From contig NZ_CAXQBR010000102.1 of the NCBI RefSeq assembly GCF_964222135.1, positions 1 to 63,118 of the forward strand: a DNA stretch of 63,118 nucleotides, read 5' to 3'. The DNA is from Euzebya sp. (GTDB lineage Bacteria; Actinomycetota; Nitriliruptoria; Euzebyales; Euzebyaceae). The notes under the pieces were generated by a model that ran no database searches, was not told the DNA's origin, and saw only the letters and a program-made list of their open reading frames with translations. This document shows positions 31,497 to 51,155 of the stretch, one piece after another. Positions within the stretch are counted from its first letter, which is position 1, and every line of letters starts with the position of its first letter. The position numbers and the translations under genes are program-made.

Positions 31497-31988
31497 ATGC
31501 ACCACGCCCCTGCAGCACCACCGCGCCACGGCCCACGGCAGACCGTGCTCATCGTCGGGTCCTCCGGCGGGCACCTCACCCAGATGCGCGCGCTCGAGCC
31601 GTGGTGGTCCAAGCACGACCGGGTCTGGGTCACCTTCGACATGGTGGACGCGAACAGCTCGCTCGAGGGCGAGGAGGTCGTCTACGCCTACCACCCGACG
31701 ACCCGCCACATCCCGAACCTGCTGCGCAACCTGTGGCTGGCCTGGCGGGTGCTGCGGCGCACCCGGCCTGACGTGATCGTGTCGTCCGGGGCCGGCGTGG
31801 CGCTCCCGTTCTTCCTGCTCGGGCGCCTCTTCGGGGTGACCACCGCCTACATCGAGGTGTACGACCGCATCGACACCCCGAGCCTGACCGGCCGGCTGTG
31901 CCGTCCCCTCAGCACGCTCTTCTTCCTGCAGTGGGAGGAGCAGCTGCGGAACTACCCTGGCGCCGTGGTGATCGGACGGCTGCTGTGA
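31497..31988 (+). CDS. ALG14/PssD-like glycosyltransferase subunit
   Basis: The membrane-associated half of a two-subunit UDP-sugar glycosyltransferase (ALG14-ALG13 in eukaryotes, PssD-PssE or EpsF-EpsE in bacteria) that adds the second sugar to a lipid-linked carrier. The 163-residue protein has the N-terminal VLIVGSSGGHLTQMRALEPWWSKHDRVWVTFD, the central NLWLAWRVLRRTRPDVIVSSGAGVALPFFLLGRLFG helix region and AYIEVYDRIDTPSLTGRL. ATG 31497 has AGGA six bases upstream. Its stop overlaps the start of its partner gene (GTGA). First gene of the polysaccharide locus. Confidence 0.92.
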   Translation: MHHAPAAPPRHGPRQTVLIVGSSGGHLTQMRALEPWWSKHDRVWVTFDMVDANSSLEGEEVVYAYHPTTRHIPNLLRNLWLAWRVLRRTRPDVIVSSGAGVALPFFLLGRLFGVTTAYIEVYDRIDTPSLTGRLCRPLSTLFFLQWEEQLRNYPGAVVIGRLL

Positions 31989-33427
31989 CCGCACTCGACC
32001 AGGCGAGGCCCGCGGCGTCGCCGTTGCCCGAACGTCCCTTCGTCCTCGTCACCGTCGGTACCGACCACCACCCCTTCGACCGGCTGGTCGAGTGGGTGGA
32101 CCGCTGGGTGGCCGCGCGGGGGCCCGCGGTGGCCTGCGTCGTGCAGTACGGCACGTCGGCGTCGCCGACGGCGTCGACGGGGACCGCCTACCTCGAGCAC
32201 GACGTCCTCGTGTCCGCGATGAGCCGGGCGACCGCGGTGGTGTGCCACGGCGGGCCCGGGACGATCCTCGAGGCGCGCGCCGCCGGCCACGTCCCGATCG
32301 TCGTGCCGCGGTCGAAGGCGCTGGGCGAGCACGTCGACGACCACCAGGTCCACTTCTCCCGCCGGCTGGCGGACAACGGCGACGTGGTGCTGGTGGGATC
32401 CGCCGACGCCCTGGCCGAGGCCCTCGACCAGGTCCTGGACGGTGAGTCCGAGCCGGCGGCCGTGACCGGGGACGACGGGACCTGCTCGGCGGTCGAGGTG
32501 TTCGAGGCGATGGTGGACGACGCGGTCGCCCAACGGCAGCGGTCCTCACGCCGACGTCGCCGCCGTGGGCAGACCGCGGGCCTGGACCACCTCGGGGCGG
32601 GCTCGACGGCGACCGCGGAGCCTGCGTCCGACCAGGTCGGGGTCCTGCTGATCGCGGGGATGGGCCGGAGCGGCAGCACGCTGCTCGACCGCATGCTCGG
32701 CGAGGTGGAGGGGTGCGTCTCGCTCGGCGAGGTCGTGCACCTGTGGAGCCGCGGGGTCCGCGACGACGAGCGCTGCGCCTGCGGGGAGCGCTTCAGCCGC
32801 TGCGCGTTCTGGACCGCGGTGGGCGAGGAGGCCTTCGGCGGCTGGGCGAACGTCGACGTGGAGGCGGTGCTCGCCGCGCAGCGGGCCGTCGAGCGGGACC
32901 GCCACCTGTTGAAGCTCGCCACCCGCCCGGGGGTCCTGCGCGGGTTCGACGCCGACGTCGAGGCCTACGGCCGGTCACTGCTGGCGGTGTACCGCGCCGT
33001 GCAGCGCCTGACCGGCGCCCGGTGGCTGGTCGTCTCGAGCACGGACGTGGCGACGATGTACCTGCTGCGCCGCCTCGACAGGGTCGACCTCCGGATCGTG
33101 CACCTCGTCGGCGACGCGGGCGCCCGCGGCGACGCTGGCCTCGGGCGCGCTGCGAGCGCGGTCGTACGGTCCCTGTGGTACAACTCACGCCTGCACCCGT
33201 TCGGGGCGACCGGTGTGCCGTCGTCGCGGGTGCGCGTCAGATCACTGGTCGCACATCCGCGATCGCACCTGGAGCACGTACTGGACCTCATCGAGATGTC
33301 CGATGCCTCGCCGCCCGTCCCAGAGGGCGCGCGACGGGCGACGCTCGACCAGTGGGGCATCGACCCCTCGGCGCACGCGGTCCCACGTCCCACCTCTTCC
33401 CGCTCCACGCCGCGTCGGCGGCTGTGA
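31985..33427 (+). CDS. ALG13/PssE-like glycosyltransferase fused to a sulfotransferase domain
   Basis: A 480-residue two-domain protein. Residues 18-180 are the PssE/ALG13 catalytic half (LVTVGTDHHPFDRLVEWVD, CHGGPGTILEARAAGHVPIVVPR, EHVDDHQ), expected to dock on the preceding protein. An Arg-rich linker (181-216) leads to a sulfotransferase-like domain with the PAPS phosphate loop GMGRSGSTLLDRML (225-238) and the bacterial C-x-CG...SRCAFW cluster. The usual 3'-phosphate motif (LVRDPR...S) is changed to LVGDAGARGD, so catalytic activity of this half is uncertain. PssE proteins normally end after the first domain. The reading frame is continuous; GTG 31985 overlaps the previous stop. Confidence 0.88.
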   Translation: MTALDQARPAASPLPERPFVLVTVGTDHHPFDRLVEWVDRWVAARGPAVACVVQYGTSASPTASTGTAYLEHDVLVSAMSRATAVVCHGGPGTILEARAAGHVPIVVPRSKALGEHVDDHQVHFSRRLADNGDVVLVGSADALAEALDQVLDGESEPAAVTGDDGTCSAVEVFEAMVDDAVAQRQRSSRRRRRRGQTAGLDHLGAGSTATAEPASDQVGVLLIAGMGRSGSTLLDRMLGEVEGCVSLGEVVHLWSRGVRDDERCACGERFSRCAFWTAVGEEAFGGWANVDVEAVLAAQRAVERDRHLLKLATRPGVLRGFDADVEAYGRSLLAVYRAVQRLTGARWLVVSSTDVATMYLLRRLDRVDLRIVHLVGDAGARGDAGLGRAASAVVRSLWYNSRLHPFGATGVPSSRVRVRSLVAHPRSHLEHVLDLIEMSDASPPVPEGARRATLDQWGIDPSAHAVPRPTSSRSTPRRRL

Positions 33428-33452
33428 TCCTCGCAAGACCCTAGGCGGAACC

Positions 33453-36400
33453 ATGTACCCCTCCCGATCGCAGACCCGCATCCGCACGGTGGTGCTCGCA
33501 GTCCTCACCGTGCTGTGCACGGTGGCGCCGCTCGTGCCGGCCGCCGCGGTGCAGGTGCCCCTCGACGTCCTCGTCAGCGCCGACCCGGCGAACAACACGC
33601 CGCACGCGCTGAACGGACGCGTCAACGCGATCATGCCGGTCGGTGACCGGGTGATCGTCGGCGGATCGTTCACACGCATCGCCAACGAGGGCGACGGCAC
33701 GCCCATCGACCGCCCCTACCTGTTCGCCTTCGACGCCGCCACCGGCGTGATCGACACCGGGTTCAACCCCGCGGTGAACGGGACGGTGGAGGCCATCGAC
33801 GTGTCGGATGACGGCACGGCGCTGTTCGTCGGCGGCGCGTTCAGCTCCGCCGGCGGTCGCGCGCAGCAGAACTTGGCGAAGCTCGACGCCGCGACCGGCG
33901 CGGCGGATCCCGCCTTCGACGCTGCGCCCAGCCACCGTGTGCGTGACGTCGTGCTGTCAGGCAGTCGCGTGTTCATCGGCGGTCTGTTCTGGAACGTGAG
34001 CGGCGCCCACCGCAGCGGCTTCGCAGCCGTCGACGCGGTGACCGGTGCCGTCGATCCCGGTGTGGACCTCGAGTTCGCCGACCCGTTCGGGAACGGTGGC
34101 GTCGTCCAGACGATGAAGCTGGACGTGACGCCGGACGGGACCCGTGTGGTGGCGATCGGGAACTTCGGCACAGTCGAGGGCCAGCCGCGGTCGCAGATCG
34201 TGGTGATCGAGGTCGACGGGCCGCAGGCACGTGTCTCCGATTGGCACACCGGCCTGTACGCCCAGACCGCCTCCAACGGGGCTTCCTGGTGTTCCCCCTC
34301 GTTCCACAGCTACATGCGCGATGTGGACATCGCCCCCGACGGGTCGTACATGGTGGTGGTCACGACCGGCGCCTACCGCGCGGGGCGGTTGTGCGACTCA
34401 TCGGCGCGCTGGGAGCTGGGTACGTCCGGGCCGAACCAGACGCCCACGTGGGTCAACCACACCGGTGGTGACACCCTCTACGGCGTGGCGGTCACCGGTG
34501 AAGCGGTCTACATCGGTGGGCACAACCGCTGGGTGAACAACCCCTTCGCGGGCGACCGGCAGGGGCCGGGGGCCGTCCCGCGCGAAGGGCTCGCGTCCCT
34601 CGATCCGACGAACGGGCTGCCGTTCTCCTGGGACCCGGGCCGCGACCTCGGCGTCGGTGTGTTCGACATGGTGACCTCGCCCAGGGGGCTGTACATCGGC
34701 AGCGACACCGATCGCGTGGGTCGTTGGGAGTATCACGGCCGGTTGGCGATGTTCCCGTCGGCGACCGGTGCTCCCATCCCGCCCGCTCACCCCGGACCCA
34801 TCCCCGGGCAGCTGCTCACCGGGTCCGGGAACGCGCTGACGTCAGCGGCCTTCGACGGGACGACGGTCGGGACTCCCGCGCCGATCGCGGGGCTGGACTG
34901 GTCCCGGGTCCGGGCGGCGATGGTGTTGAGCGGATCGCTCTACACCGCCGAGTCCGACGGGACCTTCCGGGTCCGCCCCTTCGACGGCGCCACCGCAGGC
35001 CCGTCCACCTCCCTCGACCTCCGCGGGCTCACCAGCAGCCACTTCCCGGTGGGCTTCCTCAACGGGATGGCCTTCGACGCAACGCGTGGGCGGCTGTACT
35101 ACACCGTCCAGGGGCAGAACCGCCTCTACTACCGGTACTTCACCCCTGAGAACGGCGTCTTCGGCGCCGAGACCTTCATCGCCGCCGAGGGTGGCCCGCT
35201 CAACTGGAGCAACGTCCGAGGCCTGCACCTCCACGGCGATCAGCTGTACACGACCGGCACGGACGGCAACCTCTCACGGACGTCCTTCGTGGACGACGCG
35301 GTCGTCCCGGGGACCACGACGGTGGTGTCCGGACCGGCGGTCGGGGACGGTCGCACCTACTCCGGTCGCGGGCTGACGGTCCACTCGCCGTCCGGTCACG
35401 TCGGCCCGAACGTCCCACCCGCCGCACGGGCCACCGTGACGTGCGTCGAGGCGACGTGTCGGTTCGGGTCCACGGGGAGCCACGACCCTGACGGGATCCT
35501 GTCGTCGTTCAGCTGGGACTTCGGAGACGGCACGACCGCCTCGGGTCCCGGCGCCGAGCACACGTTCGGCGACGGCGCCTTCACGGTCACCCTCACTGTC
35601 ACCGACGCCCGTGGGGCGAGCGCATCGACCACCGTCCCCGTGTCGATCTCCCAGCCCCCGGTCGCGGCGTTCGACGTGACCTGCACCCACCTCGAGTGCC
35701 AGTTCGACGCGTCGACCTCCACCGACGGGAGCGAGATCACCTCCTACGCCTGGGACCTGGGCGACGGTACGACCGCGACGGGGGTGACGGCGGCGCACAC
35801 CTACGCGAACCCCGGCACCTACGAGGTGGTCCTGACGGTCACCGACGACACCGGCCTGACCGCGACGACCAGCCGCGAGGTCAACGTCAGCGACGCCTTG
35901 GAAGCCATCACCTTCCTGGGTTCGTCGTCGGTGACGGACAACCGCACATCGTTCACCGTCGAGGTGCCTGACAGCGTCCGGCCCGGCGACCTGATGGTCC
36001 TGTTCGCCTCGTTCAACGAGACCGACCAGAACCCGCAACCCACCACCCTCCCTGGCTGGACCAGCCTGGACACCGTCGTGGCCGGCCGCCTGAGGACCAG
36101 CGCCTGGTGGCGGATCGCTGAGGTCGGCGACGAGACCAGGGCGGAGACGCTGAGCCTGAACCGGTACCTCAAGGGTGACGTGACGCTGCTGGCCTACGGC
36201 GGCACCAGTCCGACCGTGCCGGTGGCGATCGCCGCCGGGCAGGCAGAGACCGAGTACCGGACCGAGCACACCACCCCGGTCGTCCCATCGGGTCTGAACG
36301 AGGGCACGGTCGTGTCGTACTGGGCCGACCGCACCTCCGGGACCACCTCCTGGTCGGTCCCCGCCGGCCAGAACGTGCGTCACGAGGGCTACGGCCTGGG

Positions 36401-37430
36401 TGGCGGGCGGGTGTCCGCCGTCGTGGCCGATGCGGCCTTCACGACCCCGGGCGACGTGGGCGGCATCACCGCGGTCTCGGACGAGACGAACCGCAACGCG
36501 ACGACGTGGTCGATCGTCCTGGCGCCCGTCGGCGTGACCGAGACCACGAACCGCGTGCCGGTCGCTGAGCCGACGACGAGCTGCATCGACCTGCAGTGCC
36601 AGTTCGATGCATCCGCATCCTTCGACGTCGACGGCGAGATCGTCGACCACGTGTGGGACTTCGGGGATGGGACAACGGCATCTGGCGTGACGGCAACCCA
36701 CGCGTACGCGGCGGCTGGCGTCTACGAGGCGACCCTGACCGTCACCGACGACGACGGCGAATCGTCCATCGCGCCGTTCAAGGTCACCGTGCAGGCTCCG
36801 GCGGCCGGCATCCGGTTCATCGGGGCGTCCGGGGTGAACGACAACGCGTCGAGCTTCGAGGTCGAGGTGCCGCCCGGCACCGAGCCCGGCGACGCGATGG
36901 TGTTGGCGGTCTCCACCAACGTCGCGGCCGCCCAGGCGACCCCGCCCGCCGGGTGGACGTCGCTCGGGCGGATCGAGGACCAGTCGATGTCCACCCAGCT
37001 GTTCGCCCGCGTGGCGTCGGCCGAGGACATCGGCGGTCTCGTGCAGGTCGGCACGTCGGCGTTCACGAAGGCCGACCTGAGCCTGAGCGTGTGGGAGGGT
37101 ACCTCGCTCACGGCCCCCGTCGCCGCGGTCGGCTACGCGGTTGAGGAGGCCGACACGGCATCGCACACCACCCCCGTGCTGGAGAACCCCGTCGACGGCG
37201 GGCTCGTCGTCTCCTACTGGGCGGACAAGACGTCCGCGACCACGAACATCGCGCCACCACCGGGTCACACCACTCGGCGTCTGGGCGTCGGGTCGGGCGG
37301 CGGGCGGATCACCTCCCTGGTCGCCGACAGCGGCATCCACGCTGCGGGGCCGGTCGGCGGTGCGACGGCGACGTCCGACTCGGTCAACGGCAAGGCGACG
37401 ATGTGGACCATCGTCCTCGCGCCTCGCTAG
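33453..37430 (+). CDS. Giant secreted protein: beta-propeller, three PKD domains and two C-terminal repeat modules
   Basis: A 1325-residue exported surface protein. The signal peptide (RIRTVVLAVLTVLCTVAPLVPAAAVQ) is followed by a beta-propeller of delta-60/kelch-like repeats (about 50-640; NAIMPVGDRVIVGGSFTRI, VEAIDVSDDGTALFVGGAF, RVRDVVLSGSRVFIGG). PKD domains lie at about 653-730, 735-815 and 1033-1115 (WDFGDGTTASG, WDLGDGTTATG, WDFGDGTTASG), each with a C-x4-C pair near its start. Two related modules of about 200 residues (819-1028 and 1120-1325) begin ITFLGSSSVTDN and IRFIGASGVNDN. It has no CWB2 repeat, so its anchoring is unclear. Its place in the locus suggests it binds or displays the polysaccharide. 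Start ATG 33453. Confidence 0.9.
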   Translation: MYPSRSQTRIRTVVLAVLTVLCTVAPLVPAAAVQVPLDVLVSADPANNTPHALNGRVNAIMPVGDRVIVGGSFTRIANEGDGTPIDRPYLFAFDAATGVIDTGFNPAVNGTVEAIDVSDDGTALFVGGAFSSAGGRAQQNLAKLDAATGAADPAFDAAPSHRVRDVVLSGSRVFIGGLFWNVSGAHRSGFAAVDAVTGAVDPGVDLEFADPFGNGGVVQTMKLDVTPDGTRVVAIGNFGTVEGQPRSQIVVIEVDGPQARVSDWHTGLYAQTASNGASWCSPSFHSYMRDVDIAPDGSYMVVVTTGAYRAGRLCDSSARWELGTSGPNQTPTWVNHTGGDTLYGVAVTGEAVYIGGHNRWVNNPFAGDRQGPGAVPREGLASLDPTNGLPFSWDPGRDLGVGVFDMVTSPRGLYIGSDTDRVGRWEYHGRLAMFPSATGAPIPPAHPGPIPGQLLTGSGNALTSAAFDGTTVGTPAPIAGLDWSRVRAAMVLSGSLYTAESDGTFRVRPFDGATAGPSTSLDLRGLTSSHFPVGFLNGMAFDATRGRLYYTVQGQNRLYYRYFTPENGVFGAETFIAAEGGPLNWSNVRGLHLHGDQLYTTGTDGNLSRTSFVDDAVVPGTTTVVSGPAVGDGRTYSGRGLTVHSPSGHVGPNVPPAARATVTCVEATCRFGSTGSHDPDGILSSFSWDFGDGTTASGPGAEHTFGDGAFTVTLTVTDARGASASTTVPVSISQPPVAAFDVTCTHLECQFDASTSTDGSEITSYAWDLGDGTTATGVTAAHTYANPGTYEVVLTVTDDTGLTATTSREVNVSDALEAITFLGSSSVTDNRTSFTVEVPDSVRPGDLMVLFASFNETDQNPQPTTLPGWTSLDTVVAGRLRTSAWWRIAEVGDETRAETLSLNRYLKGDVTLLAYGGTSPTVPVAIAAGQAETEYRTEHTTPVVPSGLNEGTVVSYWADRTSGTTSWSVPAGQNVRHEGYGLGGGRVSAVVADAAFTTPGDVGGITAVSDETNRNATTWSIVLAPVGVTETTNRVPVAEPTTSCIDLQCQFDASASFDVDGEIVDHVWDFGDGTTASGVTATHAYAAAGVYEATLTVTDDDGESSIAPFKVTVQAPAAGIRFIGASGVNDNASSFEVEVPPGTEPGDAMVLAVSTNVAAAQATPPAGWTSLGRIEDQSMSTQLFARVASAEDIGGLVQVGTSAFTKADLSLSVWEGTSLTAPVAAVGYAVEEADTASHTTPVLENPVDGGLVVSYWADKTSATTNIAPPPGHTTRRLGVGSGGGRITSLVADSGIHAAGPVGGATATSDSVNGKATMWTIVLAPR

Positions 37431-37479
37431 TGGTGGACATGCCCCAGGGCGCGGGCGCTGGCCCGTCGCCCAGATCCGC

Positions 37480-39078
37480 ATGAGCGCGACGCCACCGGAC
37501 CTCCCGACCGCGGGTGACTACCTCGCCGTCCTCCGTCGCCGCTGGGCACTGATCGTCGTGTCCGTCGTGGTGGCGGGGATGGCAGCGCAGCTGTACGTCG
37601 CGGTGGTGCCCGACGAGTACGAGAGCTCCGCGACGGTGCTTGTCCGACCGATCACGCGAGATCCCCTGGAGGCGTACGACCGCGCGGGGGATCTCGTGGA
37701 CCTGCAGACCGAGCTCCAGCTGGTGACCTCCCCGTTGGTGGTGGATCGCGCGCGACCCGTCATCGGGGATGCACCGGTCGACGAGGTGCAAGAGCGGATG
37801 GCGGTCGAGGCTCCGGGCGACGCCGATGTGATGCGGATCACGTACCGGGCGCCGGGTCCGTCGCAGGCCGCCGCGGGGGCCAACGCGCTGGCCGAGGCGT
37901 ACCTCGCGGTGCGGCTCGACAGGGGCTCCGCGGCGATCTCGGGGTCCACCGACGCGATCGAGGAGCGCCTCGCCGAGCTGAGCGACGAGTTGGAGGACGT
38001 CTCGGCGACCATCGCCGCCACCGCGGACGACCCGGAGTCGCTCGACGCCATCGACGCGCAGAACCGCCGAACCCTCCTGCAGGGGCAGATCAGCTTGCTC
38101 TCCGCCGAGCTGGCACAGCGCCTGTCGACCAGCATCGACGCCGGAGAGGTCATCGCGCCGGCCGTCGAACCTGCCGCGCCCAGCAGCCCCCAACCCGTGC
38201 GCGCGATGATCGTCGCGCTGCTCGCTGGTGCGGTCCTCGGTGTCCTGGCGGCGTTCGTGCGCGACCGGTTGGACGACAACCTGCGAGATGCCGGTGTCGC
38301 CGGGCGAGCGCTGCACGCCCGCGTCCTCGCGGTCGTCCCCGGGGGAGGCGGGCTCCGCACCCGCAACCGGTCCATGGTGAACGCGTACCGGCGGCTCGCG
38401 GTCACCCTTGACGACCGGCGGCCTGACGCGCTGATCGTCGCCAGCTACGAGCCGCTCGCTGAACGCACCTCGACGGCGGTCAACCTCGCGATCACGTTGG
38501 CGGAGGAGCACCGGGTGCTGCTCGTCGACGTGCCGAGCGGACACCCGGCGGTGCAGGAGCTGCTCAACTCGAACCTCGACGCAGCCCGCCGCGGCCTGGT
38601 CGTCGAGTCGGGTGTGGGTAGGGAGATCGTGGAGCTCCACCAGCCGGCGCCCCTCCACCTGATCGCGGCGGAGTCGTCCAGTCCGGCCTCGTCGCGGTAC
38701 GGCCAGAGCAAGGGGACCATGACCGCGCTGCTCGACGTCGTCGGCGGTGCCTACGACTTCGTGATCGTGGACGCCGCCCCGCTGTCGGAGTCGACGGATG
38801 CCCTCGAGCTGCGCGAGGTGTCGAGCGGCGTCGTGTTCGCCGTCCGCGTCGGCGACACCCGCTTGTCGGACCTGGCAGAGGCGGCGGAGACCCTGGACCA
38901 GGTCGGCTTGCGGATCCTGGGCGTCGTCGTGCACACGAAGCGTCGCCGCCGGGGCAGGGTGGACAGCGGCCTGGCCCGGCAGGTCGCCGATGCAGGTGCG
39001 TCGGCGACCGGTCGGGGTGACCTCACCAGCGCTGCCGGCCGACGCGCGGGAGGGACGGCAGACGCCAGGCGGTCATGA
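37480..39078 (+). CDS. Wzz/polysaccharide co-polymerase with tyrosine-kinase-like domain lacking Walker A
   Basis: A 532-residue membrane protein controlling chain length in Wzy-dependent assembly. It has an N-terminal Wzz domain (DYLAVLRRRWALIVVSVVVAGMAAQLYVAV, then EYESSATVLVRP), a coiled-coil middle and a second helix (MIVALLAGAVLGVLAAFV). Then comes a cytoplasmic part resembling a BY-kinase/MinD fold: LIVASYEPLAERTSTAVNLAITLAEEHRVLLVDVPS and YDFVIVDAAPLSESTDALEL. The Walker A position reads LAERTST with no GK, so ATP binding is doubtful, while the Walker B-like strands remain. No Tyr cluster is seen at the C-terminus. ATG 37480; convergent with the glycosidase-like gene nine bases away. 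Confidence 0.88.
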   Translation: MSATPPDLPTAGDYLAVLRRRWALIVVSVVVAGMAAQLYVAVVPDEYESSATVLVRPITRDPLEAYDRAGDLVDLQTELQLVTSPLVVDRARPVIGDAPVDEVQERMAVEAPGDADVMRITYRAPGPSQAAAGANALAEAYLAVRLDRGSAAISGSTDAIEERLAELSDELEDVSATIAATADDPESLDAIDAQNRRTLLQGQISLLSAELAQRLSTSIDAGEVIAPAVEPAAPSSPQPVRAMIVALLAGAVLGVLAAFVRDRLDDNLRDAGVAGRALHARVLAVVPGGGGLRTRNRSMVNAYRRLAVTLDDRRPDALIVASYEPLAERTSTAVNLAITLAEEHRVLLVDVPSGHPAVQELLNSNLDAARRGLVVESGVGREIVELHQPAPLHLIAAESSSPASSRYGQSKGTMTALLDVVGGAYDFVIVDAAPLSESTDALELREVSSGVVFAVRVGDTRLSDLAEAAETLDQVGLRILGVVVHTKRRRRGRVDSGLARQVADAGASATGRGDLTSAAGRRAGGTADARRS

Positions 39079-39087
39079 CCCCGCGAC

Positions 39088-41001: not shown

Positions 41002-41106
41002 GCAGAAGCTCCCAGTCGACGACTAGTCTTCCCATCGGCGGTGGCTCGACCCGGTTTAGCGCGTGGAGTGGCGCCACGGGGAAGGTTCCGACACCGTGAT
41101 GGCCGC

Positions 41107-41149: not shown

Positions 41150-42115
41150 ATGTCGACGGACACTGGAGTCAACGGGGTTCAGGACGTCGACGGGACACGC
41201 GGTCCGCGGCCGACGGTCTCGGCCGTCATCGCGACCCACGACCGGCCCCAGTTGCTGCGAGAGGCCATCGAGGGCGTGCGCGTCCAGACCTACGACGGCG
41301 TCCTCGAGTGCGTCGTGGTCTTCGACCGGAACGAGCCCGACGAGACCCTGGTGTCCGACGACCCCCGCCGACCGGTCGTCGTCCTCCGCAACGCCCGCAC
41401 CCCCGGGCTGGCGGGCGCACGCAACACCGGCGCGCTGGCTGCGAGAGGTGAGCTCCTGGCCTTCTGCGACGACGACGACGTGTGGCTGCCCGACAAGACG
41501 TCCGCGCAGGTCGACATCCTGGACGCGGAACCCGACCGCCAGGTCGTGGTCGGCGGGATGGTGATCGACTACGAGGGCGACCGCATCGAACGCGTGTGGC
41601 CCAGCGACGAGGTCACCGTCGCGGACCTGTGCCGGTCCCGCGTGCAGGACGCCCACCCCTCGACCGTCCTCGTCCGGACCACGGCGTTCACCGGTGACAT
41701 CGGTCTGGTCGACGAGGCGATCCCGGGGAGCTACGGCGAGGATCACGACTGGTTGATCCGCGCGGCGAAGGTGCACCCGCTCGCCTACGTCCGCAGGCCG
41801 CTGGCGGTGGTCGCCTGGCATCGCGCCTCCCACTTCAGCGGCCGCTGGCCGACGATGATCGAGGCGCTGGACTACCTGATCGACAAGCACCCGGAGCTGC
41901 GACAGGACAGCCGCGGGTTGGCGAACCTGCGTGGACGACAGGCCTTCGCACGAGCCGCGATGGGGGATCGGCGCGCCGCGATGCGGACAGCCTTCGAGAG
42001 CTTGCGGCTGAACCCGCTCGACCGGCGCGCCGCGGTCGCACTGGTGGTGAGCACCGGTCTCTTGTCGGTAACTCGTGCCCAGCGGATGGCGAACGCAGTC
42101 GGGAGGGGCATCTGA
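41150..42115 (+). CDS. Family 2 glycosyltransferase
   Basis: A 321-residue GT-A-fold enzyme that transfers a sugar from a nucleotide donor, probably building the repeat unit on the inner membrane face. It has TVSAVIATHDRPQLLREAIEGVRVQTY, the nucleotide-binding RNARTPGLAGARNTGALAARGELLAFCDDDDVW block with the metal-binding DDDD motif, and a C-terminal acceptor region (YGEDHDWLIRAAKVHPLAYVRRPLAVVAWHR) with the ED pair of family 2 enzymes. No initiating phosphosugar transferase is beside it. It leads the operon that runs to 48146 or beyond. Confidence 0.93.
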   Translation: MSTDTGVNGVQDVDGTRGPRPTVSAVIATHDRPQLLREAIEGVRVQTYDGVLECVVVFDRNEPDETLVSDDPRRPVVVLRNARTPGLAGARNTGALAARGELLAFCDDDDVWLPDKTSAQVDILDAEPDRQVVVGGMVIDYEGDRIERVWPSDEVTVADLCRSRVQDAHPSTVLVRTTAFTGDIGLVDEAIPGSYGEDHDWLIRAAKVHPLAYVRRPLAVVAWHRASHFSGRWPTMIEALDYLIDKHPELRQDSRGLANLRGRQAFARAAMGDRRAAMRTAFESLRLNPLDRRAAVALVVSTGLLSVTRAQRMANAVGRGI

Positions 42116-42165
42116 CCCGCGCGCACGCGCCCCGTTCCCGGTCGAGCTGGACCGGGGGGGCCTCC

Positions 42166-43449: not shown

Positions 43450-44468
43450 CCCGCACCGTCGTCGCGCTGCTGGCGATGGGGGTGGCGTTGGCCGCGGTGG
43501 CGGCGGTCAGCCCGGTCGGCCCCCCCTCCAAGGTGGCGGCCGTGCAGTGGGTCGCTCTCGGACCGCCCCGGGACGACCCGCCGCCCGGGACTCCTGGAGG
43601 TGCAGCCACGACGGCGACCTATCCCGGTCGACCGGACCCCGGGACGCTCTGGTGGGGCGCTGCCGTGGGTGGCAACGCGGACCCGGCGACGCGTCACGAG
43701 CAACCCACCGGGCTGCCCCTGTCGCTGCGTCGCACCTTCTACCGGTGGGACCAGCGCACGTCGACGTTGGTCCCAGCGGTCCGAGCTGATCTCTCCGCAG
43801 GCCGCTTGCCGTGGGTGTCGATCAAGCCCCCCGGCTGGGCGGAGGTGGCCGACGGGCTCCACGACCCGGCCATCGACGAGCTGCTGCTCGAGCTCGAGGC
43901 CACCGGGGGACCGGTGTGGCTGACGGTCCACCACGAGCCGGAGGGCGGCGGCGGGGTGAACGCCCCGGATGACCCCGCCGGGCCGGCTGGGCACGTCGCG
44001 ATGAACCGCCACATCCGCGAGCGCATGGACCTCCTGGGCATCCAGGACGTCGCGCTGGTGCTGATCCTGATGGACTGGACGTGGGATCCGAGGTCGGGTC
44101 GCGACGTGGAGGAGTGGTGGGAACCCGGCATCTACGACGTCCTGGGTGTCGACGTGTACCGCGACGAGCCGGTGTCCTTGGTCACGGACAACTGGTTGGA
44201 GATCAGGCGTTGGGCTGGCGAGCAGGGCATCGACGTCGCCGTCGGGGAGTGGGGGTTCCGGGGGATGGACGCGACGGCAGGCCAGCACGTGCGGGAGTGG
44301 TACGAGCATGCGGCCGCCTCCCACGACGACGGCCTCGGCGCCCGGGTCGTCGCGATGGCGGCCTTCGACTCCGGGCTGAACGCCCCCACCGGGTCGTGGG
44401 AGCTGCGCGGCGCGCAGCTGGCGACGTTCCACGAGCTCCTCGCCGATGCCCGGACAGCCCGGCTGTGA
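43446..44468 (+). CDS. Exported glycoside-hydrolase-like protein, paralog of the CWB2 glycosidase
   Basis: A 340-residue protein with an N-terminal signal or anchor (VVALLAMGVALAAVAAVSPVG) and a hydrolase-like domain (about 60-340). It shares long blocks with the C-terminal half of the protein at 39088: WGAAVGGN, LPLSLRRTF, RWDQR, GRLPWVSIK, WLTVHHEPEGGGGVN, WTWDPRSGRD, EWWEPG, VGEWG. Putative catalytic residues are Glu164 and Glu268. It lacks the CWB2 repeats, so it should be soluble or membrane-held rather than wall-bound. It may cut or transfer the locus polysaccharide; the fold assignment to GH26 or a relative is by motif only. Confidence 0.82.
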   Translation: MTRTVVALLAMGVALAAVAAVSPVGPPSKVAAVQWVALGPPRDDPPPGTPGGAATTATYPGRPDPGTLWWGAAVGGNADPATRHEQPTGLPLSLRRTFYRWDQRTSTLVPAVRADLSAGRLPWVSIKPPGWAEVADGLHDPAIDELLLELEATGGPVWLTVHHEPEGGGGVNAPDDPAGPAGHVAMNRHIRERMDLLGIQDVALVLILMDWTWDPRSGRDVEEWWEPGIYDVLGVDVYRDEPVSLVTDNWLEIRRWAGEQGIDVAVGEWGFRGMDATAGQHVREWYEHAAASHDDGLGARVVAMAAFDSGLNAPTGSWELRGAQLATFHELLADARTARL

Positions 44469-45682
44469 TGGCAGCGCGCGATGCGTCATCGCCGGGTGCT
44501 GGCCGCGACCTGGTGCAGGTCGTGGGCAGGTTGTGGCCCGCCGCGGAGGCGGTCGATGTCGTCCGAGCCCGGTCCGCTCGCCGGACGGGGTCGACCGACG
44601 ACTTGCTGTTCGTCCCCACGGCGCGGCGGCCGTGGCTGTTGGTGCCCGACCAGTCGCGTGCGGCAGCGGCCGGCGTCCTGCGCGTCAGCCAGACCAGCAC
44701 CGCAGCCGACAGGCTGGTGCGGGCGGTCCTCGCGGGTGCGTTTCGAGCCGGCATCGCCCAGCTGTGCCTCGTCGATCGGGTTCGGATCACGGGGGCGCGG
44801 GCTGGTGAGTCCATCGTCAGCCACCTCTCCGCGGTGCTCGGCCGGGCCGTGGTCGTCAGCCTCGGGGTGGGGACGCTCCGGGCCAACCAGAAGCCCATCC
44901 TCCAGGTGTTCGACCAGAACGGGTCGGTCCTCGCGTTCGTCAAGGTGGGCGACGACGAGGTCTCCACGGCGCTCGTCGACCGGGAGGCGCGGAGTCTCGC
45001 ACGGCTGGCGGGCCTGCGGCTGCGGCACCTCACCCTCCCCCGCGTGCTGCACCACGGCAGCTGGCGTGGTTTGCGCCTCCTCGTCATCGGCGCCCTGCCA
45101 ACTCCGGTGACGGCCTGGGCGCCCCGACGGGCGGTGCCGGTTGCAGCCTTGGCCGAACTCGCGCGCGCGGAGGGTGTCGAGCAGGTGCCGGTCGGTGCGG
45201 GTCCGGTCGTGGCGGCGCTCCGGAGCTGCGCCGGCGCCGTGGAGGACCGTGCGGTTGGGCGAAGCGTGGGCGCACTGGCCGACGCGCTCGTCGCGCGCCA
45301 CGGGGCGGTCGCCGTCGAGCACGGGATCTGGCACGGCGACTGGACGCCCTGGAACATGGCCTTCGCCGGGCGGCAGGTCTCGCTGTGGGACTGGGAGCGA
45401 TGCGCCGACGGCGTGCCCGTCGGCGCCGACGCGCTGCACTACGTGATGCAGCGGCGCGCACGGGAGACCAGCGATTGGGACGATGCGCTCGCGGCGACCA
45501 CCAGGATCGCCCCGGCGCTCCTGGGGGCGCTCGGCGTCCGCGCGCCCGCGGCCCCGGTCGTCGACGCCTACCTGGCGCTCCTGTGCGCGCGGTACCTGCT
45601 GGCGGCCGAGGGACCGAACGGTGCGGCGCTGGCCCTACGTGCGCGGTGGGCACTCGAGGTGACCGAGCGGAGGTTGTCATGA
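44468..45682 (+). CDS. Aminoglycoside-phosphotransferase-fold kinase-like protein
   Basis: A 404-residue cytoplasmic protein with an APH/choline-kinase type C-terminal domain. The catalytic loop is HGDWTPWNMAF (about 289-299), followed by the metal-binding VSLWDWERCADG. N-terminal strands include VFDQNGSVLAFVKVGDDEVSTALVDREARSLARL, with the Lys and Glu expected in the small lobe. The first 130 residues are not recognised. Probably it phosphorylates a sugar or other small molecule for the polysaccharide; this is inference from the neighbours. The ATG at 44468 overlaps the previous stop (TGATG). Confidence 0.8.
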   Translation: MAARDASSPGAGRDLVQVVGRLWPAAEAVDVVRARSARRTGSTDDLLFVPTARRPWLLVPDQSRAAAAGVLRVSQTSTAADRLVRAVLAGAFRAGIAQLCLVDRVRITGARAGESIVSHLSAVLGRAVVVSLGVGTLRANQKPILQVFDQNGSVLAFVKVGDDEVSTALVDREARSLARLAGLRLRHLTLPRVLHHGSWRGLRLLVIGALPTPVTAWAPRRAVPVAALAELARAEGVEQVPVGAGPVVAALRSCAGAVEDRAVGRSVGALADALVARHGAVAVEHGIWHGDWTPWNMAFAGRQVSLWDWERCADGVPVGADALHYVMQRRARETSDWDDALAATTRIAPALLGALGVRAPAAPVVDAYLALLCARYLLAAEGPNGAALALRARWALEVTERRLS

Positions 45683-46575
45683 CCGATCCCCGACGAGGCA
45701 TGGCCGCCCGCATGCCGACGATGAGATCCCGCGCGCCCGACGAGGTCAAGGCGCTGGGGCGACGGGTCGCGCGTGGCGTGGGCCGCGCGACGGCACCGGC
45801 TCGCATGCTGCCGGCGTTCCTCGTGGTGGGTGCCCAACGTGCCGGCACGACGTCGCTGCACCGCGCCCTGATGGCCCACCCCGACGTCGTTCCGCCCCTC
45901 TTCCACAAGGGGATCCACTACTTCGACGTCGCCTACGGACGCGGCATGCGGTGGTACCGCGGCCACTTCCCGGTGACGGCCGTGGCCCGGAGACGCGTCG
46001 CAGGGCTCCCGCAGACCTTCGAGTCGAGCGGGTACTACATGCACCACCCGCTCGCCATCGAGCGCATCGCGGCGGACCTCCCCGATGTGCGCCTGGTGGT
46101 GATGCTGCGTGATCCCGTGGAGCGGGCCTACTCGGCCCATCGGCATGAGTGCGCGCGGGGCTTTGACCACCTGCCGTTCGAGGAGGCGCTCGACCGGGAG
46201 CCCGAGCGGTTGGTGGGCGAGGTGGCGCGCATGCGGGCTGATCCGAGCTACGTCAGCGTCTCCCACCGCCACCACTCCTACGTCGACCGCGGTCAGTACG
46301 CGGGCCAGCTCGTGCGGATGTTCGATGCCGTGGGGCGTGATCGCGTGCACGTCCTCGGGAGCGAGGACTTCTTCGAACGGCCTGAGGAAGAGTTCGCACG
46401 TCTCCTCGACTTCCTGGGGCTGACGCGGTGGCAGCCGGACGGCTTCGAGCGGTGGAACGCCCGGCCGAGGGCGCCGATGGCCGCGGCCACCCGAGCACGC
46501 CTGGAAGCCCACTTCGCCCCGCACGACGACGCCCTGGCCCGCCTGCTGGGCTACGAGCCGAGCTGGCGCCGATGA
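45679..46575 (+). CDS. PAPS-dependent sulfotransferase
   Basis: A 298-residue sulfotransferase that moves sulfate from 3'-phosphoadenosine 5'-phosphosulfate to an acceptor. The 5'-phosphosulfate loop VGAQRAGTTSLHRAL (50-64) and the 3'-phosphate motif MLRDPVERAYSAHRH are intact, and the C-terminal VLGSEDFFERPEEEFARLLDFLGL is typical of the heparan/NodH-like bacterial group. No membrane anchor is seen. In this locus the glycan repeat unit is the likely acceptor. The ATG start overlaps the preceding stop (ATGA), and so does its own stop with the flippase start. Confidence 0.92.
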   Translation: MTDPRRGMAARMPTMRSRAPDEVKALGRRVARGVGRATAPARMLPAFLVVGAQRAGTTSLHRALMAHPDVVPPLFHKGIHYFDVAYGRGMRWYRGHFPVTAVARRRVAGLPQTFESSGYYMHHPLAIERIAADLPDVRLVVMLRDPVERAYSAHRHECARGFDHLPFEEALDREPERLVGEVARMRADPSYVSVSHRHHSYVDRGQYAGQLVRMFDAVGRDRVHVLGSEDFFERPEEEFARLLDFLGLTRWQPDGFERWNARPRAPMAAATRARLEAHFAPHDDALARLLGYEPSWRR

Positions 46576-48146
46576 CGCGACCGACGGGTGGAGGCGTGGC
46601 GGTCGAGGACGACCGCCACCTCCACCGGCTGGCACGCGGGAGCGGCCTCAACCTCATCGGTGCCGCGACGTCGAGCGCGGCGTCCTTCGGGGTCATCTTC
46701 GTCGTCACCAACGCGTTCGACCAGGCGACCGCCGGCGGCTTGTTCGCCGGCACCGCACTGTTCATGCTCATCGTCACCGTCGCCGGGCTCGGAGCCGACG
46801 TCGGTCTGGCTCGCTGGGTGCCGCACCTGATGGCCAGCGGCCGCACCGCTGACGTCCGGAGGTGCATGCGCAGCGCGGGCACGGCGGTCCTGGTCACGAG
46901 CGGGGTTGCCGCAGCGGTCATGGCCGTGCCCTCGTCACCACTGACGGGGCTGGTGGGCGGCGACGCGCCCGGCGTCGACCTCGCGCAGGGGATCCGCGTG
47001 CTGGCCGCCTTCGTCCCGGTCATGACGGTCTTCATGTTGCTGCTCGCCGCCACCCGCGCGTACGGGACGATGCGTCCCACGGTGGTCGTCGACAAAATCG
47101 TCCGCTCGACCGGCCAGGTCGTGCTGGTCGTGGTGGCGGCGGTGATCGGGACGGAGCTCGGGTGGTTGGCCGCGGCCTGGGCGCTCCCGCTGCTCCCGGC
47201 GACCGCCTGGGCCGGTCTCTGGCTCCGCCGCGTGGCAACCCGCGCACGCGATGCTGTGCGCCCCCACCTCGACACCGCCCCGGACGGGGACGACGCCGTC
47301 CGAGCGTTCTGGCGGTTCACGCTCCCACGTGCACTGGGTCAGGTGGTCCAGACGGCGATCCAGCGGGTGGATGTGCTGTTGATCGCCGCCCTCCTGGGCG
47401 TGCGGGACGCCGCCGTCTACACGGCCGCGACGCGCTTCATGGTGTTCGGCCAGATGGGCATCCAAGCGATCCAGCAGATGCTCCAGCCGCAGCTGAGCCG
47501 TCTGTTCGCCGACGGCGACCACCCGGCCGCGAAGAGTGTGTTCGCCGCAGCGACCACGTGGACGATCCTGCTCACGTGGCCGCCCTACATCCTCTTCGCC
47601 GGGCTGGCCCCGTCCCTGCTCGTCGTGTTCGGGGACGGCTACGGCGAGGGTGCGACGACCGTGTCGATCCTCTGTGCGGCCATGCTCGTCAGCACGGCGA
47701 CCGGTCCGGTCGACGTGGTCCTGCTGATGGCCGGGCGCAGCGGGCTGAGCCTCGGGAACAACGCGGTGGCGCTGGTGCTGAACGTCGTGCTGAACATCGT
47801 GCTGCTGCCGCGCGTCGGGATCACCGGTGCAGCCATCGCCTGGTCGGTGGCCATCGTGGTCCGCAACCTCCTGCCGCTGTGGCAGATCCGACGCGAGGTC
47901 GGGTTCACACTCGCCGGGGGCAAGGCGCTGCGCGCGGCGGTCCTGGCCGGTGCCACCTTCGGCCCGGCGGCGCTGGTGGCCAGGTCGGCCGTCGAGCTGC
48001 GGTGGGCGCCCACCCTCGTCCTGGTGGGCGTCGCGACGGCCGCCTACGGGCTCGGCGTGTGGCGGGCTCGTGGGAGACTGGAAGTTGATATCCTTGCCCG
48101 CGCCCTCCGGCGACGCCGCACGCCGACCGCGGCCAGCCGTCCGTGA
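46572..48146 (+). CDS. Polysaccharide flippase (Wzx/MATE-like)
   Basis: A 524-residue membrane protein of the MOP superfamily with about 14 helices. It moves lipid-linked repeat units across the cytoplasmic membrane for polymerisation. Typical blocks are the N-terminal RGSGLNLIGAATSSAASFGVIFVVTNAF, FWRFTLPRALGQVVQTAIQRVDVLLIAALLG at the start of the second half, AAVYTAATRFMVFGQMGIQAIQQMLQPQLSRLF and the repeated ALVLNVVLNIVLLPRVGITGAAIAW. The ATG at 46572 overlaps the sulfotransferase stop (ATGA). Confidence 0.93.
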   Translation: MTRPTGGGVAVEDDRHLHRLARGSGLNLIGAATSSAASFGVIFVVTNAFDQATAGGLFAGTALFMLIVTVAGLGADVGLARWVPHLMASGRTADVRRCMRSAGTAVLVTSGVAAAVMAVPSSPLTGLVGGDAPGVDLAQGIRVLAAFVPVMTVFMLLLAATRAYGTMRPTVVVDKIVRSTGQVVLVVVAAVIGTELGWLAAAWALPLLPATAWAGLWLRRVATRARDAVRPHLDTAPDGDDAVRAFWRFTLPRALGQVVQTAIQRVDVLLIAALLGVRDAAVYTAATRFMVFGQMGIQAIQQMLQPQLSRLFADGDHPAAKSVFAAATTWTILLTWPPYILFAGLAPSLLVVFGDGYGEGATTVSILCAAMLVSTATGPVDVVLLMAGRSGLSLGNNAVALVLNVVLNIVLLPRVGITGAAIAWSVAIVVRNLLPLWQIRREVGFTLAGGKALRAAVLAGATFGPAALVARSAVELRWAPTLVLVGVATAAYGLGVWRARGRLEVDILARALRRRRTPTAASRP

Positions 48147-48218
48147 GGCATCGGTCAAGTCGCGTTGCGAGCAGCCGAACGTACGTGGGATGAGCGCGGC
48201 GACGGAGAGGACCCCGAC

Positions 48219-49529
48219 ATGACCGTGATGCGGCACGTCCGCGACCGTGTGCGGCGCGAAGCCCGGCGATCCGCACGGCGGGTGGCCCCCGCAGCCCGCA
48301 CGGCGGCGCAGCGAGTCCGCGAGGCCGTGCCGGAGTCGGTCCGGAAGGAGCTGTACCCCGTCGTGCCGTGGCGGCCCTGGCGCGTCGACGTGCGGTTGGA
48401 GGACCTGCTGCTCGGTGTCATGGGTCCCCAGACGGCGTCTGAGTTCGCAGAGTCCTCGCACGACCTGCTGTGGCCATCGACCCGGCTGGCCGAGGGACCT
48501 CACGTCCAGCTGCTCGCCGACGTCGATCGGGGCGAGCTGACCGACGCCGAGATCCTCGCGCACCCGTACGGCGAGATGGGTCGCACGTGCCTGCGGCTGC
48601 ATGGCCGCTACTTCTGGGCCACGGACGACGAGGGCGTCGTGGACGTGGCTCGCGACTTCATCCGACGGTACCGAGGTGAGGTGCCGACGCGGACCCGCGC
48701 GCACCAGAGCCCGGCGGGATCGCCGCTCATGGTCGCGCCGGTGCGGTGGACGTCGGGGTTGCACCAGATCGTCGACGGGCACCACCGAGCGGCGATCGAG
48801 TTCCGACGTGGCCGGCGGACGCTGCCCGCGAAGGTGAAGTGGCTGCCGGTCACCACGCCGCTCCAGGACCTGCTCAACCAGATGAGCTGGATCGGCGGGG
48901 AGAAGGAGCTCTACCAGCCCATCGACGCCCCCGAGCTCCGCGAGGCCTGGGTCACGGTCCGCCGTTGCACCGATCGCCTCGAGAAGATGGTGGCGTTGCT
49001 CGACGACCTCGGCATCTCCGCAGGTGGACGCCGCTACCTGGATGTGGCGTGCTGCTACGGCTGGTTCCCGGCGCAGATGGAGGCGCGCGGGTTCGATGCG
49101 CGCGGCATCGAGCGCGATCCCCTGGCGCCGCGGCTGGCAGAGGCTGCCTACGGGCTGTCCCCCGATCGCGTCCTCGTGGGGGACGCCGTCGACCTGCTCG
49201 CGTCGCAGGAGTCCCCACACGACGTCGTGTCCTGCTTCAGCCTGCTGCACCACTTCGTGCTCGGTCGGGGGAGCACGACCGCGGAGGAGCTGCTGTCCGC
49301 CCTCGACAGGGCGACCGGATCCGTGCTCTTCATCGACACGGGCCAGGGTGACGAGGCGTGGTTCGCGGACAGCCTGGCCGGCTGGAACCCCGCGCACATC
49401 GAGGCATACCTCCGCCGGCACACGTCATTCGACGACATCATCGACTTGGGACCAGACGAGGACGCGGTCGGACCGTTCCGCGACAACTACGGCCGGCACC
49501 TCTTCGCATGCGTTCGCCGGGACAGGTGA
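48219..49529 (+). CDS. Fusion of a ParB/sulfiredoxin-like domain and a SAM-dependent methyltransferase
   Basis: A 436-residue protein. The first 60 residues are basic and helical. Residues about 107-205 contain HPYGEMGRTC and GLHQIVDGHHRAAIEFRRG, which resemble the GxHR-type core of ParB/sulfiredoxin nucleotide-binding domains. Residues about 267-400 are a class I methyltransferase: RRYLDVACCYGWFPAQMEARGFDARGIERDP, VGDAVDLL, VSCFSLLHHF. The motif I glycine pattern is altered (DVACCYG). It could methylate a sugar or a carrier in the pathway; the role of the first domain is unknown. ATG 48219 has GGAGAGG eight bases upstream. Confidence 0.78.
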   Translation: MTVMRHVRDRVRREARRSARRVAPAARTAAQRVREAVPESVRKELYPVVPWRPWRVDVRLEDLLLGVMGPQTASEFAESSHDLLWPSTRLAEGPHVQLLADVDRGELTDAEILAHPYGEMGRTCLRLHGRYFWATDDEGVVDVARDFIRRYRGEVPTRTRAHQSPAGSPLMVAPVRWTSGLHQIVDGHHRAAIEFRRGRRTLPAKVKWLPVTTPLQDLLNQMSWIGGEKELYQPIDAPELREAWVTVRRCTDRLEKMVALLDDLGISAGGRRYLDVACCYGWFPAQMEARGFDARGIERDPLAPRLAEAAYGLSPDRVLVGDAVDLLASQESPHDVVSCFSLLHHFVLGRGSTTAEELLSALDRATGSVLFIDTGQGDEAWFADSLAGWNPAHIEAYLRRHTSFDDIIDLGPDEDAVGPFRDNYGRHLFACVRRDR

Positions 49530-49601
49530 GGCGGCCAAGTCTCATCCCGCGCACCGTCCTACGATCGACGGACCGGCCCGCTGCCGCCGCGCTCGGTCGG
49601 T

Positions 49602-51155
49602 TCAACGACGTCCACGGTCCCACAGGCGGGGTGCAGCGTGGACGACGACCCCCAACGCCGGAAGCCCGACCTGTTCGAGGAGGTCAGCTGCCTGCGCCAG
49701 GTCACGTCGACGCGTGACGCCCACCGTCGCCACCAGGACGACTCCCCGCACCAGGTCGCCGAGCTCGAGGGCATCCGTCGACCCCCCGAGTGGCGAGCTG
49801 TCGATGAGCACGACGTCGTAGTGGCGCCCGACGGCGCCGAGGGACGATGTGATGAGCACCCTGGTGCCGCCGAACCGGGAGTGGGCTACCGCGTCCGGTC
49901 CGACGGCGATCACGTCAGGCGCGGTCGTCGGGAAGCGCCACATCGTCAACCCGTCGCCGAGACCCCCCGCGTCGTGCGGCGTCGGGGCGGCATCGACGTG
50001 GGTCGTCACGTCGTCGACGAGCTGGCGATCACCCACGACGAGCACTCGGTGCGCGTCAGCGAGGGTGGTCGCCAGGCCCACCGCCGTCGCCGTCCGCCGG
50101 CGCGATCGTTCCCAGCTCGCGACCGCCACGACCCCGGCGTCCGCCCCCCCGAGGGACACGGCCAGTCGACGGTATGCCCTGGACGTGGTGGCACGTCCCC
50201 GTCGCGTGGTGGAGGTCGGGAGTACGGTCAGGACCCGTGCGCGCAGGGCTGCTGCCGCCTGGTCCGGAGACCGCACCCGGTCATCTACCCGATCCCGGAC
50301 CAGCGCCGCGCCGAACGCGATGACCGCGCCCGCGGCTGCCGCGATCGCCAGGGACCGGGTTGGGCGTGGGGACGAGGGCGACTCCGGCGGACGGGCACGC
50401 GCGATGACCGTCCCAGGGTCGACCTCCACGGCCAGGCGCTCCGTGAGGTCGTTGCTCAGCAACGCGATCTGCCCCTGGAGCACGGCGGCCTCAGCCTCTG
50501 CGTCCAGGTGTCGTAGCGACTCGGGCTCGTCGATGGTCTCGGCGAGGGTCGCGGTGACGTCCCGGAGATCAGCCCGCAAGGCCGCGAGGCGGTCTCGCAC
50601 GCTGCTCGCCGACCGGTCGATCGCCTCTTGGCCCAGCTCCGCGCGAAAGTCGATGTAGGCATCCGCGAGGGCGTTCGCACCTCGGGCGGCCCGTTCGGCC
50701 GAGCCGGAGCTGTAGGCGATCTCGAGGATGCGAGAGTCGTCCGGGGACGAGACGTCGACCACCTCCCGCACGTCGGCGTGTTCGAGGTCCGGTTCCACCG
50801 GGCCCAGAGCTTCGTCGATGACGAGCTCGGATACGATCAGCTGCTGCTCGGTGGCCAGGTCGATCAGTCGCGCGGGGGGGCCGAGGGCGTTGACGGGATC
50901 CTGGCTGAGGGGCTCGATCAAGACGACCGCACTCGAGACGTACCGCGTTGGCTGCTGGGCGATTGCGAAAGCTGCACCCATGACGACGGCCAGCACGACC
51001 ACCGTCATCAGGATCCACCGACGCCGGAGGATCGCCACGTAGTCGCCGAGCACAGGGTCGTCGGAGCCGTCTCGTCCACCGTCGGCTGCTGCGCCCCCGC
51101 CGGTATCCGTCGGTGTGTCGGGGGCGCGCACCGCACGCTGGCTGGCAGTCGTCAC
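49602..51155 (-). CDS. Second Wzz/polysaccharide co-polymerase with degenerate kinase-like domain
   Basis: A 517-residue paralog of the protein at 37480, on the opposite strand at the far end of the locus. It has a Wzz domain (DYVAILRRRWILMTVVVLAVVMGAAFAIA, then YVSSAVVLIEPLSQDPVNALG), coiled coils, a second membrane helix (SLAIAAAAGAVIAFGAALV) and a cytoplasmic MinD/BY-kinase-like part (VVAVASWERSRRRTATAVGLATTLADAHRVLVV, YDVVLIDSSPLGGSTDALEL). The Walker A site reads ERSRRRTAT with no GKT. The GTG start at 51155 has GAGAGGG seven bases upstream. It is convergent with the methyltransferase gene and divergent from the trypsin-like gene. Confidence 0.88.
   Translation of the reverse strand: MTTASQRAVRAPDTPTDTGGGAAADGGRDGSDDPVLGDYVAILRRRWILMTVVVLAVVMGAAFAIAQQPTRYVSSAVVLIEPLSQDPVNALGPPARLIDLATEQQLIVSELVIDEALGPVEPDLEHADVREVVDVSSPDDSRILEIAYSSGSAERAARGANALADAYIDFRAELGQEAIDRSASSVRDRLAALRADLRDVTATLAETIDEPESLRHLDAEAEAAVLQGQIALLSNDLTERLAVEVDPGTVIARARPPESPSSPRPTRSLAIAAAAGAVIAFGAALVRDRVDDRVRSPDQAAAALRARVLTVLPTSTTRRGRATTSRAYRRLAVSLGGADAGVVAVASWERSRRRTATAVGLATTLADAHRVLVVGDRQLVDDVTTHVDAAPTPHDAGGLGDGLTMWRFPTTAPDVIAVGPDAVAHSRFGGTRVLITSSLGAVGRHYDVVLIDSSPLGGSTDALELGDLVRGVVLVATVGVTRRRDLAQAADLLEQVGLPALGVVVHAAPRLWDRGRR

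Follow-up and report, generated by a model that had tools for sequence, protein, structure and literature searches.

Does an actinobacterial polysaccharide locus that carries sulfotransferase domains make a sulfated polymer? The question is raised by positions 31497-51155 of contig C102 of Euzebya sp., which was analysed at its full length of 63,118 bases (the window in what follows) and belongs to a draft genome of 5.06 Mb in 111 contigs. According to two papers, cyanobacteria are the only, or almost the only, known source of bacterial sulfated polysaccharides (PMC8205485, PMC13390465). An earlier sequence-only reading had proposed a sulfated, wall-associated exopolysaccharide for this locus. 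The proposal is partly supported: wall association finds no support here, but sulfation is backed by the family membership of one sulfotransferase (STF2), by synteny, by the linkage of sulfate-activation genes to the locus in relatives and by the mutants of the wps-1 cluster of Actinoplanes missouriensis. The preferred reading, to which we give a probability of about 0.78, is that of a Wzx/Wzy-dependent locus which makes a sulfated exopolysaccharide and is a divergent relative of wps-1. What is observed directly is the gene content, the intact motifs, the fold, the synteny and the genomic linkage to sulfate activation, with genes called by a GC-position script and protein domains assigned by Pfam and NCBIfam cut-offs.

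STF2 (45679..46575, plus strand) is an intact, WpsH-like sulfotransferase of the heparan-sulfate type, recognised by PDB profile, predicted fold and the motifs for 3'-phosphoadenosine 5'-phosphosulfate (PAPS). Its profile matches in the PDB include a bacterial sulfotransferase (3rnl, 4e-41), human heparan sulfate 3-O-sulfotransferase 3A1 (2e-32) and NDST1 (1e-29), and the predicted model (pLDDT 93) reaches Z 24-27 with 3rnl, NDST1 and the 3-OST enzymes but at most 15 with every other sulfotransferase. Both PAPS motifs are kept, the 5'-phosphosulfate-binding (5'-PSB) one as GAQRAGTTS and the 3'-phosphate-binding (3'-PB) one as LRDPVERAYS. An invariant glutamate (E73, numbered from 45805) aligns with the glutamate of the MEKTPSYF motif of 3-OST-3, which we take to be the catalytic base of that enzyme. 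The gene probably starts at 45679 rather than at 45805, and the ATG at 45679 overlaps the stop codon of the preceding kinase gene as ATGA. Sequence and predicted fold place STF2 among the heparan-sulfate sulfotransferases (3-OST, NDST), with which it has the fold, the PAPS motifs and the conserved glutamate in common; it differs in being bacterial and predicted to be cytosolic, and the identity is about 25%. On plasmids, STF2 turned up in only one record, that of a Nonomuraea replicon of 11.9 Mb which a plasmid collection includes.

The sequence-only reading had counted two sulfotransferase domains, and both are indeed present, but they do not amount to two working enzymes. The other domain, STF1, is fused to an ALG13-like glycosyltransferase (31985..33427, plus strand) and is degenerate. 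Its Sulfotransfer_3 match (E 2e-4) falls below the Pfam cut-off, but its homologues are clear. STF1 keeps the 5' motif GMGRSGSTLL and has HLVGDAGA where homologues show the likes of HLVRDSRGVA. Among 58 sequences, the 3'-PB motif is present in all 57 homologues and absent only from STF1, whose C-terminal part is missing as well. As both motif and C-terminus are lost, one sulfotransferase is predicted to work instead of two, and this would be STF2. A hidden frameshift was rejected, since none of the three forward frames read restores the 3'-PB motif, and phmmer found no relatives of STF1 in the PDB. In one related genome (G017), a locus holds two sulfotransferase copies (L048 9986-14818), and a second locus on another contig (L049 1833-3755) has the STF1 domain fused to a family 2 glycosyltransferase (GT2), not to ALG13. 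Judged by these fusions, the STF1-type domain is one that has changed its partner.

Synteny in related genomes, a check that the sequence-only reading had proposed, came out in its favour. The block Wzz-Wzy-kinase-STF2-Wzx recurs across named Actinomycetota, so that the combination of genes is more than chance. Among 61 related genomes, the kinase of the cluster occurs in only four (G000, G002, G017 and G022), in five clusters and each time with a close STF2 beside it; these genomes share ALG14, ALG13, GT2, Wzy, Wzx, Wzz, kinase, STF2 and propeller/PKD genes. When named GTDB genomes were scanned, 437 relatives of STF2 came up, and the best 80 of these 437, on which the locus counts are based, are all from Actinomycetota. 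The kinase is found in 71 of the 80 loci, Wzx together with Wzy in 66, a glycoside hydrolase (GH) of the GH26 or a similar kind in 63, STF1 in 49 and the propeller in 39, while WecG, further sulfotransferases and methyltransferases are recurrent extra genes. Two Virgisporangium loci (L122, L155) show the core of the published wps-1 gene order, and carriers that can be cultured include Micromonospora, Microbispora and Nocardioides. In a phylum-wide draw, the kinase profile was found in only 19/396 genomes, so the locus is patchy.

Genes for sulfate activation are linked to these loci. In 28/80 loci and 14/36 genus-level groups, an adenosine 5'-phosphosulfate (APS) kinase is encoded no more than about 10 kb away, where about one would be expected (P <1e-12 at an assumed base rate of 3%); this base rate, put at 1-3%, was estimated from genome size and copy number, and genera that are related do not count as independent. 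Within the same distance of the best 80 loci, cysD was found in 11, cysQ in 10 and an initiating phosphosugar transferase (initiator) in 15, and in three Streptosporangiales loci (L088, L140, L154) cysN, cysD, cysQ and an initiator are contiguous with the locus. In two relatives outside the genus (G022 and G018), an ATP sulfurylase-APS kinase gene lies directly beside a WcaJ-type initiator (L075 7059-8789 and L076 6017-7732), the fusion being confirmed by Pfam in L075.

The same surveys bear on the alternative that survives best, namely that a polysaccharide is made but the acceptor of STF2 is another molecule, for example a glycolipid, a small metabolite or a protein, leaving the polymer unsulfated. 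In actinobacteria, the known substrates of sulfotransferases are glycolipids and natural products, and the sulfotransferases of the relatives occur in many contexts; mycobacterial lipo-oligosaccharides are also mentioned in PMC8205485. This is nevertheless unlikely given the place of STF2 in the glycan-acting heparan sulfate branch, the overlap of its start with the kinase stop codon and the frequency with which it lies beside Wzx and Wzy.

As the sequence-only reading had remarked, neither an initiator nor a sulfate-activation gene is present in the window, and the genome search it had called for found both elsewhere: three PF02397 initiators, CysD, CysNC and a separate APS kinase, with two APS-kinase domains in the genome. 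On contig C67, a sulfate-permease-like gene on the opposite strand is followed by cysD, a gene for a CWB2 protein, cysNC and a WcaJ-type initiator that scores above the TIGR03025 cut-off. This initiator is 54-58% identical to a copy on contig C2 and to two copies in the congener G002, which has the locus; G001 and G003, which do not, hold only distant copies. The gene for the separate APS kinase is at the end of contig C61. Contigs C61 and C67 probably adjoin, because their ends share a Gly-Asn-rich repeat protein and because cysD comes, in congeners, after the leuC/leuD block that is found on C61. The repeat protein, also rich in Gln, is split between C67 (L010 1-1706) and C61 (L016 1-309). 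Sulfite/nitrite-reductase domains are also found in the genome. The CWB2 gene on C67 (L010 9570-11762), whose product is secreted, overlaps cysNC by four bases and is absent at that place in three congeners. Upstream of the sulfate-activation and initiator region lies a gene for a GGDEF-EAL protein (L010 1734-4220); cyclic di-GMP might thus have a part in controlling the polymer.

The absence of these genes from the window is one of several points that weigh against a sulfated polymer. The cysD-cysNC pair occurs in 3/3 congeners searched, including G001 and G003 without the locus, which rules out sulfate activation dedicated to it. In G002, 57 kb separate cysNC from the initiator, and their adjacency is not a trait conserved in the genus. 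Polymer sulfation is argued here from genes, and for A. missouriensis, too, the authors state that production of a sulfated polysaccharide awaits verification (PMC13390465). The substrate of the kinase, finally, is not predicted by an APH/choline kinase fold.

In the comparison with wps-1 (AMIS_7280-7380; Tezuka and Ohnishi, June 2026, PMC13390465), likeness rests on published gene content and order, the AMIS proteins being compared by description. The cluster encodes a GT2, a sulfotransferase, WecG, DUF4262, GH26, a methyltransferase, Wzx, a heparan-sulfate-type sulfotransferase, a kinase-like protein, Wzy and Wzz (PMC13390465). Both loci have a GT2, a WpsB-kind sulfotransferase domain, a heparan-sulfate-type sulfotransferase, a kinase-like protein, Wzx, Wzy and Wzz, as well as a methyltransferase beside wzx and, at the level of the family, linkage of a sulfate-activation gene to the machinery. 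The GH26 protein of wps-1 (WpsE) has a candidate counterpart in the GH26-like protein described below. However, no WecG (WpsC) was found among the window proteins scanned with Pfam, and ALG14/ALG13 take its place, for which reason the locus is called a divergent variant of the wps-1 kind, not a plain member. It further differs by its PKD/propeller and CWB2-GH proteins, a second Wzz, a WpsB-like domain that is fused to ALG13 and predicted dead, a methyltransferase that is probably not homologous, and an initiator and PAPS genes on another contig; Euzebya sp., moreover, is not known to form sporangia.

The wps-1 mutants supply the genetic side of the argument. Sporangia are disturbed in each of the single-gene mutants for the heparan-sulfate-type sulfotransferase, the kinase, Wzx, Wzy, Wzz and the adjacent sulfate-activation gene AMIS_7390 (PMC13390465). 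Deletion of that sulfotransferase or of the kinase leads to squashed sporangia, whereas without the other wps-1 sulfotransferase the sporangia look normal and about tenfold fewer spores are released (PMC13390465). Deletion of AMIS_7390 (sulfate adenylyltransferase/APS kinase) caused severe defects that the authors called unexpected (PMC13390465). By analogy, this pattern fits a locus in which the heparan-sulfate-type sulfotransferase-kinase pair is kept and a WpsB-like activity is lost. The word "conserved" is absent from the main text of the paper, and no survey of cluster distribution was found in it (PMC13390465). Among cyanobacteria, chemical proof exists for synechan, the product of the xss cluster of Synechocystis PCC 6803, which was shown to be sulfated (Maeda 2021, PMC8205485). 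The xss cluster is likewise of the Wzx/Wzy exopolysaccharide type with two sulfotransferases, but has eight glycosyltransferases, its own regulators and a priming transferase inside the cluster, and no description of a kinase pairing was found for it.

All the parts named by the sequence-only reading (Wzx, Wzy, two Wzz, ALG14/ALG13, GT2, kinase, methyltransferase, glycosidase-like and propeller/PKD proteins) were recovered at 31497-51155 by Pfam, PDB profiles and fold, with Wzx, Wzy and Wzz all encoded in this one locus (Pfam). The order is ALG14, ALG13-STF1, propeller/PKD, Wzz, CWB2-GH, GT2, Wzy, GH-like, kinase, STF2, Wzx, methyltransferase and the second Wzz; the genes below are on the plus strand unless stated otherwise. 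Matches above Pfam cut-offs are Alg14, Glyco_tran_28_C, PKD, Wzz (twice), CWB2, Glycos_transf_2, Wzy_C, Sulfotransfer_3 (45.8 kb), Polysacc_synt and Methyltransf_11.

From these genes we infer a pathway, including its reactions, their order, the sugars, the kinase substrate and any attachment to the wall. The WcaJ-type transferase on C67, or its C2 paralogue, would put a hexose phosphate on undecaprenyl phosphate. The lipid-linked chain would be lengthened by the ALG14/ALG13 pair and next by a WpsA-like GT2 (41150..42115; Glycos_transf_2 6.8e-21, 65% identity in G002). The ALG14-like protein (31497..31988; PssD/Cps14F-type, Pfam Alg14 E 7.5e-12, 67% identical to its counterpart in G002) is the partner of the second glycosyltransferase, the ALG13-like domain (PssE/WelK-type, Glyco_tran_28_C E 3e-12). 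Like PssD/PssE and WelK, the pair would add the second sugar to a lipid-linked hexose; in NCBIfam the ALG13 domain is nearest to WelK (2.7e-21) and PssE (3.2e-19), but both scores are below the equivalog cut-offs and the sugar is not predictable from them. WelK is a glucuronosyltransferase, and a uronic acid as the second sugar is only a suggestion from this score.

At the cytosolic face, STF2 would then sulfate a hydroxyl of the lipid-linked repeat unit, with PAPS from CysD/CysNC as the donor. Most likely the unit is sulfated in the cytosol and flipped afterwards, since inspection shows no signal peptide in STF2 and its gene follows that of the kinase. The coupled APH-fold small-molecule kinase (44513..45682; WpsI-like, with the Brenner motif HGDWTPWN and WDWE) would phosphorylate the lipid-linked glycan or a precursor. 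This protein has no Pfam match, an APH match being found in 8/31 aligned homologues, and a sequence search of the PDB gave nothing significant; the fold search did match, the model resembling choline kinase/APH folds at Z ~15 in a flat list. HGD is present in 72/72 and WDWE in 69/72 sequences. A methyltransferase dependent on S-adenosylmethionine, with an N-terminal extension (48165..49529; Methyltransf_11 1.4e-4), would methylate the glycan, after which a WpsG-like Wzx (46596..48146; Polysacc_synt 1.1e-8) would flip the repeat unit and a WpsJ-like Wzy (42190..43449; Wzy_C 5.8e-11) polymerise it under control of Wzz.

The first Wzz-like copolymerase (37480..39078; Pfam Wzz 1e-6, TIGR01007 1.3e-16, below cut-off) and the second (49602..51155, minus strand; Pfam Wzz 8e-6) both have a bacterial tyrosine kinase (BY-kinase)-like domain without Walker A by motif scan, as do the relatives scanned (0/38 with the motif), which suggests a family of pseudokinase copolymerases. 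Outside the cell, the polymer would be trimmed, bound or anchored by the GH26-like and PKD/propeller proteins. Of the former, one (43449..44468) has putative catalytic glutamates in HHEPE and VGEWG by motif reading and has counterparts in related loci; its paralogue (39088..41001, minus strand), 63% identical, is secreted and adds three CWB2 repeats (CW_binding_2 1.4e-38). Both are below Pfam recognition as glycosidases, with a PDB profile match to a GH26 beta-1,3-xylanase at E 6e-5. The propeller/PKD protein (33453..37430) is secreted and has three PKD domains (Pfam).

CWB2 repeats lead to a second alternative, for which there is a slight probability: a glycopolymer anchored to the wall or to a lipid and acting as ligand of CWB2 surface proteins, comparable with PSII in Clostridioides difficile, rather than a released exopolysaccharide. 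It would agree with the CWB2 proteins inside and flanking the locus, with the CWB2 gene in the cysD-cysNC operon and with four LCP ligase domains in the genome. Yet the repeats are very abundant in the genus irrespective of the locus (as in G001, G003 and G004), so their co-location says little about wall association, and a role as general CWB2 ligand is rejected; in most loci elsewhere, moreover, a CWB2 protein was not detected. The secreted trypsin-like protease-CWB2-PPC protein (51355..53841, plus strand), which adjoins the locus and is not conserved with it, is probably a neighbour rather than a part. Further on, an inositol-phosphatase-family gene (54958-56028) was rejected as CysQ, its best NCBIfam match being fructose-bisphosphatase/inositol phosphatase and CysQ lying far below cut-off. 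That the locus is decaying, with STF1 dead and the remainder non-functional, is very improbable, for besides the losses of STF1 it could invoke only a missing Walker A that is missing family-wide, while all other reading frames are open with catalytic motifs kept and the kinase-STF2 module retains its active residues.

The locus appears instead to be a mosaic. For the ALG14, ALG13, propeller, Wzz, CWB2-GH, GT2, Wzy and GH genes, G002 is the closest match or nearly so (47-68% identity), with ALG13 scoring marginally higher with G017. For the kinase, STF2, Wzx and the methyltransferase, on the other hand, G002 is not closest. STF2 is 64% identical to a Jiangellales protein versus 46% to G002, and its tree groups it with support (96/92) alongside Actinopolymorpha, Fodinicola, Nocardioides, Paenarthrobacter and Phycicoccus, away from G002. 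The methyltransferase has its sole homologue among 85 loci in Fodinicola (53%), beside wzx, and shows no similarity to the one beside wzx in loci of wps-1 order. The simplest reading of these affinities is that the module at about 44.5-49.5 kb (kinase-sulfotransferase-flippase-methyltransferase) was apparently replaced by horizontal transfer, and the loss of function of STF1 may be tied to this replacement.

Compared with wps-1, what is new is the breadth of the family, the linkage to sulfate activation, ALG14/ALG13 in the place of WecG, the fusion with a dead sulfotransferase and the apparently exchanged module. More tentative, and held at well under even odds, is the wider proposal that Actinomycetota commonly make heparan-sulfate-like sulfated polysaccharides from one modular Wzx/Wzy locus, in which the APH-fold kinase and the heparan-sulfate-type sulfotransferase are a coupled pair that adds phosphate and sulfate to the repeat unit, while lineages exchange this decoration module without the genes for the backbone. 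The surveys suggest that dozens of actinobacterial genera, well beyond the known formers of sporangia, have a locus competent for sulfation. Sulfation being a strong inference here, this bears on the long-held view that bacterial sulfated polysaccharides are cyanobacterial only. It also offers an explanation for the AMIS_7390 mutant, as this gene family makes the sulfate donor and relatives carry such genes inside or beside the locus. The carrier strains listed by the survey form a concrete set in which the question of sulfation can be settled.

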